Positions 22,664-58,320 of a DNA stretch of 64,000 nt are shown here, piece by piece. The DNA lies in assembly GCF_005771565.1 (NCBI RefSeq), contig NZ_VAWA01000004.1:124001-188000 (forward strand). The letters run 5' to 3'. The translations under genes were made by a program, and so were the position numbers. Numbering within the stretch: the stretch's first letter is position 1; each line of letters begins with the position of its first letter. The DNA comes from Nesterenkonia sphaerica (lineage in GTDB: Bacteria; Actinomycetota; Actinomycetes; Actinomycetales; Micrococcaceae). The notes below the pieces were generated by a model that was not told the origin of the DNA, searched no databases, and worked only from the letters and a program-made list of their open reading frames with translations.

Positions 22664-24445
22664 GTGACCGAACCCACACTGTTCGACGTCGGCACCGACG
22701 TCGGCTCACAGCTTCCCCCTGCCTACCCGCACCGGGCTGCTCACGGCACCGCCGGAACCCTGCGCCAATGGCAGCAGGAGGCCCTGGACCTCTACATCCA
22801 GAAACGGCCCAAGGACTTCATGGCCGTGGCCACCCCCGGGGCGGGCAAGACCACCTTCGCGCTGCGGGTGGCAAAACTCCTGGTCGAATCCGGTGAGGTC
22901 AACCGCATCTACCTGGTGGTGCCCACCGAACACTTGAAGCGGCAATGGGCCGACGCCGCCGCGCGGGTCGGGCTGGCCGTGGACCCGAACTTCAAGAACA
23001 GCGACGGCCGCCACGGCTCCCAGTTCATCGGAGTGGCGGTCACCTACGCGCAGGTGGCCAATAAACCGGCCCTGCACCGGAACAAGACCGAGGCAGGGCG
23101 GACCCTGGTGATCTTCGACGAGATCCATCACGCCGGCGATTCACTCAGCTGGGGCGACGGGGTGCGGGAGGCCTTTGACCCCGCTGTGCGCCGACTGGCG
23201 CTGACCGGCACACCCTTCCGGTCCGACACTTCACCGATCCCTTTCGTCACCTATGCCGAAGGACCCGATGGGGTGCCCCGGTCCCGGGCCGACTACTCCT
23301 ACGGGTACGGTCCGGCCCTGAAGGACCTGGTGGTCCGCCCGGTGGTCTTCATGGCCTACTCGGGCAATATGCGCTGGCGCACCGCCTCGGGTGAGGAGAT
23401 GGAGGCCCAGCTCGGCGGTGCCGCCACCAAGGACATCACCCAGCACGCCTGGCGGACTGCGCTGAACCCGGAGGGGGAGTGGATCCCGGCGGTGCTGCGC
23501 GCGGCCCACCAGCGGCTGATGAAAGTCCGGGACCGGATACACGATGCCGGGGGACTGGTCATCGCCACTGACCATGAAGCCGCCCGTGCCTATGCCGCGC
23601 AGCTGGACCGCCTCACCGGGCAGCCGACCACGGTGGTGCTTTCTGATGACAAGGACGCCTCACGCAAGATCGAGCAGTTCAGCCAGGATGAGTCCAGGTA
23701 CTGGATGGTGGCGGTGCGAATGGTCTCCGAGGGGGTCGACGTCCCCCGGCTCTGCGTCGGGGTGTACGCCACCTCCACCTCGACGCCGCTGTTCTTCGCC
23801 CAGGCGGTGGGCCGTTTTGTGCGTCTGCGCAAGAAGGCTGAGGTCGCCAGTGTCTTCCTGCCCTCAGTGCCGGTGCTGACCGATCTGGCCAATGCCATGG
23901 AGGCTGAACGCGATCACGCGCTGGCCGCCCCAGACGCCGATGACCCTGAGGACGGGGAGATCCCGGAGGCTGACCTGCTGCAGCAGGCAGAGCAGGAGGA
24001 GCGAGCCAGCGCGGAGCTCGCCAAGGGTGAGTTCGCCGCTCTGGGCTCCAGTGCGGCCTTCGACCGGGTGATGTTCGACGGCGAAGAGTTCGGCCTCGGC
24101 GGAGCGATCGGCTCCGAGGATGAGATGGACTTCCTGGGGATCCCGGGGCTGCTGGAGCCCGAACAGGTCTCGCAGCTGCTGCGCCGCCAGCAGGCCGAAC
24201 AGCTCCGACGTCGGCCCAAGGGCACCGACGGCGCCGGCGACGTCGTCGACCACCGGCAGTTGAAGGCGCTGCGCAGCAAGCTGAACAAATCGGTCTCCGC
24301 CTATTCCGCCAAGACCGGAATGCACCAGGGCAGCATCCACACCAAGCTCCGGGACAAGTGCGGCGGCCCCCCGGTGGGCCAGGCCACCCAGACTCAGCTC
24401 GAGGCCCGGTTGAAGCAGCTGCAGCTCTGGTTCGTCAGCAAGTAG
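22664..24445 (+). CDS. DEAD/DEAH-box superfamily 2 helicase
   Basis: 593 residues, GTG start. Q-like LRQWQQEALD precedes Walker A ATPGAGKTTFALR near 58; the DEAD box is DEIHHAGD, followed by LTGTPFRSD (motif III). Second RecA domain has MVSEGVDVPRLCVGVYAT and QAVGRFVRLRKK (arginine finger, motif VI). This is the SSL2/XPB-like group of single-polypeptide helicases that is common in actinobacteria next to DUF3039. The C-terminal 150 residues are acidic, then helical (RQLKALRSKLNKSVSAYSAK). Role unknown, probably DNA repair or RNA handling. Confidence 0.88.
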   Translation: MTEPTLFDVGTDVGSQLPPAYPHRAAHGTAGTLRQWQQEALDLYIQKRPKDFMAVATPGAGKTTFALRVAKLLVESGEVNRIYLVVPTEHLKRQWADAAARVGLAVDPNFKNSDGRHGSQFIGVAVTYAQVANKPALHRNKTEAGRTLVIFDEIHHAGDSLSWGDGVREAFDPAVRRLALTGTPFRSDTSPIPFVTYAEGPDGVPRSRADYSYGYGPALKDLVVRPVVFMAYSGNMRWRTASGEEMEAQLGGAATKDITQHAWRTALNPEGEWIPAVLRAAHQRLMKVRDRIHDAGGLVIATDHEAARAYAAQLDRLTGQPTTVVLSDDKDASRKIEQFSQDESRYWMVAVRMVSEGVDVPRLCVGVYATSTSTPLFFAQAVGRFVRLRKKAEVASVFLPSVPVLTDLANAMEAERDHALAAPDADDPEDGEIPEADLLQQAEQEERASAELAKGEFAALGSSAAFDRVMFDGEEFGLGGAIGSEDEMDFLGIPGLLEPEQVSQLLRRQQAEQLRRRPKGTDGAGDVVDHRQLKALRSKLNKSVSAYSAKTGMHQGSIHTKLRDKCGGPPVGQATQTQLEARLKQLQLWFVSK

Positions 24446-24602
24446 GTCCGTCCCCGGGTCGCCAGTGACGTGGATCTGCTGCGTCCGACCCACTTCTGGC
24501 TCGCGATCGCACCGGTTCACCCGGCCGGAGGGCCACCTCGCCGGCCCGGCCACCCGAATCCCACCCGAATCATCGGCACACCGGGCCCTGAACCCTCGGG
24601 GC

Positions 24603-24825
24603 GCAACATTCGATGGGACACCTCCCCGGAAATCGGCCATGTATCCCATCGGATGTCCCACAACAGGCCGCTCCTGAGGCACAAACGCAACATTCGTGGG
24701 GATTCAGGGGCAGACAAGCGGCCAGTGTCCCACTGAATGTTGCAGCAGGCTGCGTTATCCACAGGCGGGGGCGGACGCTCTGCACCGATTCCGTTGCTCT
24801 GCCAGGATGAGCACTATGCCACGCC
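24603..24825. repeat. structured 223-bp repeat, copy A (upstream of DUF559 gene)
   Basis: Non-coding repeat, about 97 percent identical (7 differences counted) to 58098-58320 and of equal length. Its first 141 bases are bounded by 19-bp inverted ends, GCAACATTCGATGGGACAC (24603-24621) and GTGTCCCACTGAATGTTGC (24725-24743), matching at 17 of 19. Two internal copies of the motif sit at 24641-24664 (reverse) and 24687-24705 (forward), making four alternating sites about 40 bases apart. A perfect TTATCCACA DnaA-box sequence is at 24755-24763. The repeat ends inside the first codons of the DUF559 gene. There is no transposase. The preceding 24446-24602 contains nothing I recognise. Confidence 0.9.
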
Positions 24826-25883
24826 GGTCAGCAGCGACAGGGACCATCGAGCTGCTGCGCGCCGGGAAGAGGCGAGGCCGTTCCCGCTCGGCGCTGAGCC
24901 GGGCAGTCCACAGCGGCGAGCTACACAGGCTACGCCAAGGGGTATTCGTACGCGCGGAGCAGTGGGCGCAAGCGCGGCTGAGTCAGCGGCACCGGGCGTT
25001 CACCGCGGCGGTGGGGCTGACCTCCGCCTCGGCGGTTTTCTGCGGCCGTACCGCCTTGTCTCTCTATGGACTCCCGCTGCTGAGCTGGCCGCAGCAGGTG
25101 CACTGCCGAACCCGGCATCACAGCCGCGTCGGAGTCAGCGACGCTGGATTCTTCACAGTCCGCACCTCCTTTCCGCTAAAGCACGCCTCACTGTCACGGC
25201 AGGAGGCACAGCTGCGGCTCCGTCGCGCGGACCTCGCGCTTCCGTACATGAATGTGCCGGTCCCGGGTGTGAGCTTAGAAGACGGCAGCCGCATTGAGGT
25301 AAGGGTGGAGCCCCTGCCAAGCGTCCTGGTGGACACGCTGCCCCGGCTGTCCCGGCAGGAGGCGATCGTGGTGCTGGACGCGGCGCTGACCGGGAAGTAC
25401 GACTACGGGGTCAGAGTCACTGACCGGGACCTGCACACTGCAGAGTCATTCCTCAGTCCTGGCCACACAGCTGCGTGGCGCCAGCTGCGCGACTTCGCCG
25501 ATGCGCGGTCGGAGAGTCCGGGGGAATCCCGTTCACGTGTGCTCTTCGACGAGCTGGGCTTCGAGGCCCCACAGCTGCAGGTGGAGCTGCACCTGGCCGG
25601 TGTGGGACGAGTCCGCGTGGACTTCTGGTGGGAAGGTCTGGTCTGCGAATTCGACGGCATGATCAAGTACACACGCCAGTTCACCGACCGCGACGCGGAG
25701 GACGTCGTGAAACAGGAGAAGCTGCGGGAGGACGCGCTGCGGATGCACGGCTACCGGGTGGTGCGAATCACCTGGAGCGACCTCGACGACCCGCAGACGT
25801 TGGGGCGCAAGCTGCTCCTTGCAGGAGCCCCGCACCGCGCCACCAGGTGGCATGGGGGCGCGAGTTGGTCAGCGGCAAGTTAG
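24807..25883 (+). CDS. DUF559/AbiEi-like protein: winged helix plus Vsr-type endonuclease domain
   Basis: 358 residues from ATG 24807 (AGG directly before; ATG 24816 is an alternative). N-terminal winged-helix of AbiEi type (TIELLRAGKRRGRSRSALSR to LHRLRQGVFV, residues 13-48). The C-terminal DUF559 part has a PD-(D/E)xK-like layout: E240 in SPGESRSR, D272 in RVDFWWEG, E281-F-D283 and K287, then HGYRVVRITWSDL. Such genes occur in multiple copies in actinobacteria and are often listed as type IV antitoxins or endonuclease-like proteins; function is unproven. No partner toxin gene is adjacent. The 5' end is shared with the orphan repeat at 58.1 kb. Confidence 0.8.
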   Translation: MSTMPRRSAATGTIELLRAGKRRGRSRSALSRAVHSGELHRLRQGVFVRAEQWAQARLSQRHRAFTAAVGLTSASAVFCGRTALSLYGLPLLSWPQQVHCRTRHHSRVGVSDAGFFTVRTSFPLKHASLSRQEAQLRLRRADLALPYMNVPVPGVSLEDGSRIEVRVEPLPSVLVDTLPRLSRQEAIVVLDAALTGKYDYGVRVTDRDLHTAESFLSPGHTAAWRQLRDFADARSESPGESRSRVLFDELGFEAPQLQVELHLAGVGRVRVDFWWEGLVCEFDGMIKYTRQFTDRDAEDVVKQEKLREDALRMHGYRVVRITWSDLDDPQTLGRKLLLAGAPHRATRWHGGASWSAAS

Positions 25884-25910
25884 ACAAAGCGCCTGAAGGC
25901 TGCCGGGTTT

Positions 25911-25933
25911 GACCGGGAGTTCAGCCCCCGGTC
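25911..25933. terminator. inverted repeat between convergent genes
   Basis: GACCGGG-agttcagcc-CCCGGTC, perfect 7-bp arms, between the ends of the DUF559 gene and the nicotinamidase gene. No T-run follows on either strand, so termination is plausible but not certain. Confidence 0.4.
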
Positions 25934-25948
25934 CCGAGGCAGTACCAC

Positions 25949-26602
25949 TCAGTCGGCGGGCAGCTCGTCGCTGGTGAGCAGCTCGATCCCGGCCTCGCGC
26001 AGCTCCTGGTAGGTCTGCTCGATCTTCTGCTGGTTCACACCCACGGTGAGGTCGGTCAGCACCCGCACCGCGTAGTCGTTCTCGGCGGCATCCAGTGCGG
26101 TGGCCCGCACACAGTGGTCGGTGGCGATCCCCACAATGACCACAGAATCGATCTCGCGCTCCTGCAGCCAGGAGTCCAGGTCCGGAGCGTCGGGGGAGAC
26201 CACGTCCTCCGGCTCCACCTTGATGCCCTTCTCGCCCTCGAGGATGCCGACCCGCTCCGGGTCCCCCAGGCGGCCCTCGAATCCGGAGTAGCCGTCGTCG
26301 TACAGTCCTTTCAGGAACCGGGCCTGGACGTAGTCAGTGTCCAGGTCCTCGTGCAGTTCCGCCCCCGGAGAACCTGCGAGGCAGTGCACCGGCCAGGTGT
26401 GCTCAAAGTCGGGTTCGGTCGAGAAGTGTCCACCGGGGTCCATATGCCAGTCCTGGGTGCTGACCACAGCGTCGAACTCAGCGTGGTGGTCCTCCAGGAA
26501 CTCGCTCAGTTCCGCGGAGAGCCGTGCCCCGCCCTCCACTGCGAGCGCCCCACCTTCGCAGAAATCGTGCTGAACATCCACGATGATCAGTGCCTGAGCC
26601 AT
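25949..26602 (-). CDS. pncA: nicotinamidase
   Basis: 217-residue isochorismatase-fold amidase converting nicotinamide to nicotinate. Catalytic triad visible: D9 in IIVDVQHDF, K98 in RFLKGLYDD and C164 in GIATDHCVRATALDA; metal ligands D51, H53 and H59 in DWHMDPGGHF. There is a longer than usual loop between K98 and the cysteine strand (residues 110-140, acidic). Divergent from pncB by 95 bases; the two form the NAD salvage (Preiss-Handler) route. Confidence 0.92.
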   Translation of the reverse strand: MAQALIIVDVQHDFCEGGALAVEGGARLSAELSEFLEDHHAEFDAVVSTQDWHMDPGGHFSTEPDFEHTWPVHCLAGSPGAELHEDLDTDYVQARFLKGLYDDGYSGFEGRLGDPERVGILEGEKGIKVEPEDVVSPDAPDLDSWLQEREIDSVVIVGIATDHCVRATALDAAENDYAVRVLTDLTVGVNQQKIEQTYQELREAGIELLTSDELPAD

Positions 26603-44491: not shown

Positions 44492-45100
44492 ATGTCTGAG
44501 CAGCTGCCCACTGCCTCGAGCGTGGACACGGCATCGCAGGAGAACTACATCTACAACCGGCTCCTGAAGGAGCGGATCATCTGGCTGGGGTCGGAGGTGC
44601 GTGACGACAACGCCAACACGCTGTGCTCCCAGATGCTGCTGCTCTCCGCTGAAGATCCCGAGCGCGACATCTATCTCTACATCAACTCACCGGGCGGTTC
44701 GGTGACTGCCGGGATGGCCATCTACGACACCATGCAGTTCATCCCCAATGACGTGGTGACCGTCGCCACCGGTCTGGCCGCCTCCATGGGCCAGTTCCTG
44801 CTCTCCTCCGGCACCCCTGGCAAACGCTTCGCCACCCCCAACGCCCGGATCCTGATGCACCAGCCCTCCGGTGGCATCGGCGGCACCGAATCGGATGTGC
44901 GCATCCAAGCGGAGCTGATCAAGCACATGAAGCAGGTCATGGCCGAGCTCACTGCCGAGCAGACCGGACAGAGCGTGGAGACCATCCTCAGCGACAATGC
45001 CCGCGACAAGTGGTTCACCGCAGAGGAGGGCCTGGAGTATGGGTTCTTCGACAAGATCGCCCAGCGTTCCTCCACCGTCTCCGGCGGCGGCGGAGTCTGA
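44492..45100 (+). CDS. clpP1: ATP-dependent Clp protease proteolytic subunit 1
   Basis: 202 residues. Serine protease subunit with S98 ([17 protein letters not shown]) and H123 (LMHQPSGG) of the triad. The frame opens at TTG 44489, but ATG 44492 is chosen with GGAGGA eight bases before. The tandem clpP1-clpP2 arrangement is the actinobacterial pattern in which the two subunits form a mixed 7+7 barrel fed by ClpX or ClpC. clpP2 starts 46 bases after the stop. Confidence 0.96.
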
Positions 45101-45146: not shown

Positions 45147-45758
45147 ATGAATTTTGAAGCACGCTATATCCTCCCCTCCTTCGAGGAGCGGACCCCTTAC
45201 GGGTTCAAGCGCCAGGACCCCTACGCCAAGCTCTTCGAAGACCGGATCGTCTTCCTCGGCGCCCAGGTCGACGACGCCAGCGCCGATGACATCATGGCCC
45301 AGCTGCTGGTGCTGGAGTCGATGGACTCCGAGCGGGACATCACCCTCTACATCAACTCCCCAGGTGGCTCTTTCACCGCAATGACCGCCATCTACGACAC
45401 CATGCAGTTCATCCGCCCGCATGTGCAGACGGTTTGCCTGGGTCAGGCGGCCTCTGCCGCAGCGGTGCTGCTGGCCGCCGGGACCCCGGGCAAGCGCCTG
45501 GCGCTGCCGAACGCGCGTGTACTGATCCACCAGCCAGCCATGGGCGGAGCCCGCGGCACCGCCACCGACCTGGCCATTCAGGCTGACGAGATCCGCCGGA
45601 TCCGGACCTGGATGGAAGAGGTGCTGGCCCAGCACACCGACAAGAGCCCGGAGCAGATCAAAGAGGATATTGACCGCGACAAGTTCCTCTCGGCCGAAGG
45701 TGCGAAGGACTACGGGCTGGTCGATGAAGTGCTCAGCTCCCGTAAGCTCCCCGTCTGA
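45147..45758 (+). CDS. clpP2: ATP-dependent Clp protease proteolytic subunit 2
   Basis: 203 residues from ATG 45147, which has AGGAG upstream; a longer frame overlaps clpP1. Catalytic S103 in [19 protein letters not shown] and H128 in [14 protein letters not shown]-terminus [20 protein letters not shown] is typical of actinobacterial ClpP2, with the docking edge for ClpX. Works with ClpP1; both subunits are essential in mycobacteria. Confidence 0.96.
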
Positions 45759-57921: not shown

Positions 57922-58097
57922 GTTCGGGTGGTGCGCTGCGCCGGGCCCTGGGGGAGCTCCATCATCAACCTCAGCCCACATCGGCATCGTCAGCGCTGCC
58001 CCGGGGCGCTGGGGGAGAGCTCCGCCCTAGAACCCGGCGGCGTATCTCGTGGTGGCATGTGCGCACCGCGGAAGCCTGGTGACGCAACATCCGAGAC

Positions 58098-58320
58098 GCA
58101 ACATTCGATGGGACACCTCCCCGGACATCGACCATATATCCCATCGGATGTCCCACAACAGGCCGCTCCTGAGGCACAGACGCAACATTCGTGGGGACTC
58201 AGGGGCAGACAAGCGGCCAGTGTCCCACTGAATGTTGCAGCAGCCTGCGTTATCCACAGGCAGGGGCGGACGCTCTGCACCGATTCCGTTGCTCTGCCAG
58301 GATGAGCACTATGCCACGCC
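58098..58320. repeat. structured 223-bp repeat, copy B (orphan)
   Basis: About 97 percent identical to 24603-24825 along its entire length: inverted ends at 58098-58116 and 58220-58238, two inner motifs, TTATCCACA at 58250-58258, then the ATG and first codons (ATGAGCACTATGCCACGCC) of the DUF559 gene. Here homology stops at the sixth codon or so. A short direct duplication GACGCAACAT(C/T)CGA occurs at 58081-58094 and again at 58096-58109. Confidence 0.9.

Follow-up and report, generated by a model that had tools for sequence, protein, structure and literature searches.

Why does one 64,000-nucleotide stretch of Nesterenkonia sphaerica DNA (hereafter the window) carry a nearly identical block of mostly non-coding sequence twice, once leading into a gene and once without that gene? 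An initial sequence-only reading had described the pair as a 223-bp repeat linked to the DUF559/AbiEi family that could act either as a control element or as a mobile cassette. The follow-up analysis leads to a different repeating unit, and to a possible partnership between this unit and the gene beside it.

The repeated block and its four-site array

The two copies differ at seven of 223 positions (24631, 24636, 24641, 24684, 24703, 24749 and 24767), as the sequence-only reading had estimated, and BLAST widens the match to 224 bp (97% identical). Within the first 141 bp of the repeat there are five of these differences (four of them in spacers, one in a site); the other two are further downstream. 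The first 141 bp form an array of four 18-bp sites resembling GCAACATTCGATGGGACA, in the orientation + - + -, with start-to-start spacings of 39-45-39 in copy A and 38/39-45-38/39 genome-wide. The inverted ends noted earlier were borne out (19 nt, 89% complementary), and they are sites 1 and 4 of this array. The features discussed below are the following.

24602..24825, + strand: copy A of the 224-bp repeat, comprising the array, the DnaA box and the start of the AbiEi-nuclease gene
24603..24620, + strand: array A site 1, GCAACATTCGATGGGACA
24642..24659, - strand: array A site 2
24687..24704, + strand: array A site 3
24726..24743, - strand: array A site 4
24755..24763, + strand: perfect DnaA box TTATCCACA, 52 bp upstream of the start codon
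24807..25883, + strand: gene for P0001 (358 aa), with an AbiEi-type winged helix (wHTH) and a putative PD-(D/E)XK-like nuclease domain
58084..58094, + strand: extra half-site GCAACATCCGA, immediately left of array B
58097..58320, + strand: copy B of the 224-bp repeat, running into codon 7 of a gene copy that has been lost
58098..58238, both strands: array B, with sites at 58098-58115 (+), 58137-58154 (-), 58182-58199 (+) and 58221-58238 (-)
58250..58258, + strand: DnaA box carried in copy B
58302..58320, + strand: truncated AbiEi-nuclease reading frame in copy B, first 19 bases

Full-length copies of the 224-bp repeat number only two (A and B) in the 2.79-Mb own genome (G000; an assembly of 86 contigs), and a search of 57 other genomes gave no matches to the repeat at E ≤ 1e-3. 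A limit of two copies had been named in advance as a finding that would tell against a repeat family; it holds for the 223-bp block but fails for the array, of which the genome contains nine full examples with its own motif and with dissimilar spacers. The repeating unit is thus the 141-bp four-site array inside the block, and not the block itself. In a motif-blind scan for four-unit arrays, the score is 81 for array A and 82 for array B, whereas the next best place in the window reaches 63 and five shuffles of the window give maxima of 59-63. Model R1 recovers all nine arrays, with weaker matches at C1:94967, C1:84265, C44:41547 and C75:59985, and CGCAACATTNNNTGGGA with up to two mismatches gives 25 matches in this genome against 7 for the reversed control. 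Only array A adjoins an AbiEi-type gene; two other homologs of the gene in the genome (contigs C66 and C75) are without a four-site array scoring at least 60. The window also holds a 210-bp direct repeat (44658-44865 and 45328-45535, 71% identical) in two neighboring reading frames that look like tandem clpP genes.

The start codon of the gene (ATG, 24807) lies within copy A, as previously read, but the DUF559 label does not carry over to its product: P0001 has no Pfam DUF559 match, its Pfam AbiEi matches stay below the curated cut-off, and it is matched by PADLOC AbiEi models. Among 45 aligned proteins, PADLOC AbiEi (PDLC02225) matches 45/45 at E ≤ 0.01, compared with 16/45 for Pfam AbiEi_4 and 3/45 for DUF559. 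Residues E240, S241, R244, D272, E281, D283 and K287 are invariant in 45/45 proteins, and E240, D272, E281, D283 and K287 probably constitute a PD-(D/E)XK-like site. The AlphaFold2 model of P0001 is confident (mean pLDDT 92.3, pTM 0.89), and a sequence search of solved structures with P0001 gave 0 matches at E ≤ 1. The five neighbors tested at this locus comprise a helicase, an isochorismatase, a DUF3039 protein, an NAPRTase and one reading frame without a match, with no AbiEii toxin among them; no DDE or HUH transposase was found at the locus. Copy B does lack the gene, as had been stated, but it still keeps the first 19 coding bases. The half-site immediately to its left is possibly a remnant of an older array.

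The DnaA-box sequence picked out earlier is a perfect box. Within the window, TTATCCACA occurs only in copies A and B, with 0.11 matches expected. Across the gene family, TT[AG]TCCACA is present within 250 bp upstream of 20/51 Nesterenkonia genes and 29/65 genes from other genera (49/116 together), compared with 2/51 and 1/65 downstream and with 16/346 upstream windows of neighboring genes, some of which may overlap the upstream region of the gene itself. Because of this enrichment over both downstream regions and neighbor genes, the box is a recurrent feature of the family; DnaA may bind it. A scan of 24440-24830 for sigma-70 promoters and terminators found none.

Gene-specific repeats and cognate motifs across genomes

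The proposed tie between repeat and gene family had been framed in terms of the 223-bp block; that block is not the recurring unit, but the tie itself is well supported outside this genome, in that gene-specific repeats bracket AbiEi-type genes at many actinobacterial loci. When the two 350-bp flanks of the same gene were compared at 49 Nesterenkonia loci, 24 shared at least 16 of 18 positions, against 80/2352 (3.4%) mismatched flank pairs and 0/47 ordinary genes of the window. Other genera, including Arthrobacter, Cellulomonas, Rhodococcus, Sinomonas, Micrococcus, Agromyces and Curtobacterium, gave the same level of sharing in 38/63 loci (of 66 loci, 3 had flanks that were too short or a stop that was too distant and were left out) against 250/3906 mismatched pairs (6.4%). 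In each of the two sets, 0/20000 permutations reached the observed mean. About half of the loci fail this test, including that of copy A, which scores 14 and has no 3' array, and distant relatives also have repeats on both sides of the gene.

The spacing of the sites is gene-specific as well. An inverted pair of sites lies within 70 bp on both sides of 36/112 genes, and the spacing is equal on the two sides in 31/36 (permuted mean 5.7, maximum 13 in 5000 permutations); among matched pairs the spacing ranges from 10 to 59 bp. Array sites were also seen around genes of other kinds. At L317:1596-2681 (Galactobacter caseinivorans), the 50-bp-spaced site pairs that are found around the AbiEi-type gene also frame a gene with a NOV_C match (PF13020), and arrays may therefore frame other genes too. 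At L105:2646-3560 (G013), array sites flank a DUF6226 gene on both sides, and at L100:2679-4476 (G009) they flank a hydrolase and MarR-type pair, some of the sites at one or other of these two loci being weak.

Model R1 finds matches in 13/30 genus genomes at E ≤ 0.1 and in 8/30, including the own genome, at E ≤ 1e-4, and it is blind to other motifs. The motif-blind scan reveals four-site arrays of the same geometry beside six close relatives or orthologs of the gene (scores 81, 73, 82/79, 81, 63 and 75), with six different motifs. By locus, the scores are 73 (L120), 82 and 79 (L121), 81 (L122), 63 (L123), 75 (L124) and 70 (L125, a decayed locus that retains the motif of G000), against a median maximum of 54 and a highest value of 59 in 60 shuffles of one 4-kb locus. 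The motifs differ from one another: GAAAC..GAG, GGGCAG.AG...ACGA, GAGAC.....GGGAGC, GACAT....AGGTG and GCAC....GAGGAG. More distant homologs mostly give background scores in the same scan.

Outside the immediate locus, the motif beside a nuclease gene is the one dispersed through the same genome, and no motif tested is enriched in a genome other than that of its gene. The motif of the G029 gene, GAGACNNNNNGGGAGCNA, occurs without mismatch at 19 sites in G029, at 1 in G021 and at 0 in 28 other genus genomes (control 0-2), and the 19 sites form seven groups, spaced by 38/39-45 or by 83/84. For the gene on G014:C31, the adjacent motif has 42 matches in G014 against 5 for the control, and the pattern is noisier in that the other 29 genomes, with one mismatch allowed, give 8-27 against 4-22. 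For Galactobacter caseinivorans, the motif occurs 12 times in its own genome, compared with 0 for the control and 0 in the congener G. valiniphilus. Because the layout recurs in relatives while the signature changes, gene and dispersed repeats seem to evolve together.

Shared addresses and gene decay

The gene occupies the same place, between helicase and nicotinamidase genes, in ten genomes. Where both flanking proteins could be compared, the helicases are 80-94% and the nicotinamidases 75-87% identical, whereas the gene products are 39-65% identical. Clear arrays are present at 8/10 of these loci, three of the eight being weak (L102, L107 and L168, scores 60-63), and the motif-blind scan gives no four-site array at L135 and L148. 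In the gene tree, the ten group with a few others (support 0.999), and G012 is placed with G001, G014 and G029, not with G004; the tree does not simply track the species, and strict vertical descent is therefore not established.

Matching 63 array places from eight genomes by their flanking genes reveals further addresses that are common to several species. An array between trmH and rplT is found in six species, with the start of trmH on one side and the rplT terminator, placed by eye, on the other. It has the GCAACATTC motif in G000, G006 and G009, a GGGCAG-type motif in G014, a GAGAC-type motif in G029 and a two-site variant in G005, so that four sites are present in five species. At the place of copy B, which was compared at 30 loci, arrays are found in G000, G014 and G029 (scores 82, 77 and 84), each with the motif of its own genome. 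The other 27/30 loci score 51-59, which amounts to no array; they include G005, with a weak R1 match (E=0.02), and the near relatives G009 and G006 (54 and 51), whose intergenic DNA has diverged so far that neither junctions nor a target duplication can be defined. At the same place in G014 (L252), three tandem 84-bp units, each with one + and one - site, represent local array amplification. A third array address is common to G000, G012 and G029. The array motifs of G014 and G029 differ, close as these two genomes are (DsbA-like proteins 93% and gene products 65% identical). Either arrays persist at such addresses and change their motif in concert, or new arrays land repeatedly in the same places.

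G006 and G009 carry interrupted or truncated versions of the gene. Their arrays are less self-consistent (48-73 at 12 places) than those of G000 (70-85 for nine arrays; p=3e-4), in a comparison biased by the motif having been found in G000 and by some of the 12 places being at null level; this difference fits array upkeep by the gene. In orthologous arrays, 593/936 site positions and 539/883 spacer positions are identical, or 516/720 and 414/676 without the badly registered purC set, the sites having been chosen by motif. Solo arrays were also considered as scars left by lost genes, a possibility that was set aside after tblastn at E ≤ 0.01 found no remnant of the gene at any of 62 such loci; a fragment as short as the one in copy B would escape this search.

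Copying, regulation and known systems

Two kinds of explanation, a control element or a mobile cassette, had been offered for the repeat. Sequence alone does not decide between them, and mobility or copying is favored here. The explanation we prefer, for which we judge the balance to be about even, is a gene/array partnership of the REPIN/RAYT type with nuclease-driven copying, run by the AbiEi-nuclease instead of a tyrosine transposase. It starts from what is observed directly, that is, the array geometry and dispersal, a cognate motif per genome, the bracketing of the gene, the DnaA box and the truncated copy B, and from these we infer binding, cleavage, copying and DnaA control. The four-site arrays would be the cognate recognition sites of the neighboring protein, whose winged-helix domain would bind the inverted sites and whose PD-(D/E)XK-like domain would nick or cut at or near the array. 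Repair from another array would then copy an array, and sometimes its neighborhood, to new or existing array addresses; this would both spread non-autonomous arrays and give all arrays of a genome one motif. The DnaA box in the promoter region may tie expression to replication, when a repair template exists. Copy B would be a recent product, consisting of array A and a further 81 bp, as far as codon 7 of the gene, placed in a DsbA-like/SDR intergenic region; in our reading, array A either overwrote an older array there or was copied to a favored location. Several observations count against copying: nine arrays is a low number for an element that spreads, the flank test fails at about half of the loci, that of copy A included, L135 and L148 lack a four-site array, and the trmH/rplT array sits in an operator-like position.

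The main rival, which we consider rather unlikely, supposes a fast-evolving regulon, in which an AbiEi-type repressor has the 5' array as its autoregulatory operator and the dispersed arrays as operators elsewhere. Motif and protein would drift jointly, lineage by lineage, and the nuclease domain would serve for dimerization or persist as a residual module. The closest precedent is the binding of inverted repeats upstream of their own genes by AbiEi of S. agalactiae (two 23-bp inverted repeats) and by Rv2827c (four inverted repeats, in two pairs; PMC7319586). Array A lies 64 bp before the start codon, and the recurrence of the trmH/rplT array in six species is in keeping with this explanation; arrays at this and other shared addresses could be conserved operators. 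However, many of the genes also have the element on their 3' side, the invariant nuclease-type residues suggest catalysis, and copy B is physically a copy, coding DNA included. Gene orientation at 61 array places flanked on each side by a called gene (33 tandem, 25 convergent, 3 divergent) differs from that of a background set (87 tandem, 45 convergent, 33 divergent; Fisher p=0.0023), in a test with non-independent shared addresses and a rough gene caller, and the scarcity of divergent places argues against simple operators.

A role in chromosome structure or replication, in which the protein would hold or cut arrays to organize or process the chromosome under DnaA control, seems improbable to us. 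It would draw on the upstream enrichment of the DnaA box and on the fixed array addresses common to several species, but there is no known structural role and the bracketing of the gene is left unexplained. That the inverted sites act as hairpins in a transcript is very improbable. Array A, treated as single-stranded DNA, does fold better than 200/200 shuffles (z -3.7), mainly by pairing of site 1 with site 4; in 10 sequences, however, the pairs 1-2 and 3-4 display no covariation beyond column shuffling (78.1% versus 77.3% paired, score 0.112 versus 0.113), pairing of 1-4 and 2-3 does no better, positions 24400-26000 have no Rfam match at E ≤ 0.1, and the dyad symmetry of the array makes either strand look alike. 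The covariance-model check proposed at the outset thus yielded no hairpin covariation, and the RNA candidate was rejected. A DUF559 promoter duplicated as an ordinary segment, any similarity elsewhere being due to chance, agrees with the presence of only two full-length copies, but is scarcely credible as a general explanation in view of the seven other arrays, the controls and the motifs that other species have independently; it is refuted for the array and is a fair account of the origin of copy B alone. Mobilization by a RAYT was rejected as well: a search for the RAYT-type Y1 transposase (PF01797), which detects the E. coli control, found none in the own genome and one among 30 genus genomes (G005, L309).

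The partnership that we favor has likenesses to several known systems. REPINs or BIMEs with their RAYT are likewise dispersed extragenic pairs of inverted short sites whose motif is cognate to the gene that they flank, with several flavors per genome, each with its gene, and with tandem clusters (PMC3116915 and PMC8049555); GTAG/CGTC-type tags on the palindromes are a further feature (PMC3733652). The arrays differ from them in having an AbiEi-wHTH/PD-(D/E)XK-like protein instead of a Y1 transposase partner, in numbering about nine where REPINs number tens to hundreds, and in their usual four-site unit of fixed spacing in the P0001 clade, with a motif that changes between close species. The AbiEi-type winged-helix N-terminus and the inverted sites upstream of the gene, four as in Rv2827c, recall the type IV toxin-antitoxin system AbiE (PMC7319586). 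Unlike in AbiE, there is no AbiEii nucleotidyltransferase toxin among the five neighbors, the C-terminus is a fused nuclease-like domain, and arrays also lie 3' of the gene and dispersed; the sites are of about 18 bp with gaps of 20-21 and 27 bp, compared with 23 bp and gaps of 13 and 4 for AbiEi operators. A nuclease-like gene with its own repeated site and non-autonomous copies is also reminiscent of homing endonuclease genes and of IS/MITE elements; in contrast to the former, the gene is bracketed by its site and does not interrupt it, and in contrast to the latter, the locus has no DDE or HUH transposase. The present system would appear to join the operator layout of AbiEi with the dispersal of REPIN/RAYT, without the defining protein of either. 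Among the openly licensed PMC papers searched, we recognized none that describes such arrays, which does not establish their absence from print.

More broadly, and with a probability that we place somewhat short of even, these arrays may belong to a widespread actinobacterial repeat class run by AbiEi-wHTH/PD-(D/E)XK proteins, with gene-specific array codes, nuclease-driven concerted motif change at fixed addresses and a tie to replication through the DnaA box. If this is true, REPIN-like populations of repeats that have a dedicated partner protein also originated separately from RAYT transposases, and a large, unexplained group of actinobacterial AbiEi/DUF559-type genes would gain both a function and a list of binding sites, readable from the gene flanks. 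Close protein pairs with different motifs would then offer a direct route to how the AbiEi winged helix chooses its DNA, and motifs that differ between close species while the addresses stay fixed would be a rare and testable case of genome-wide concerted evolution of a protein and its sites.
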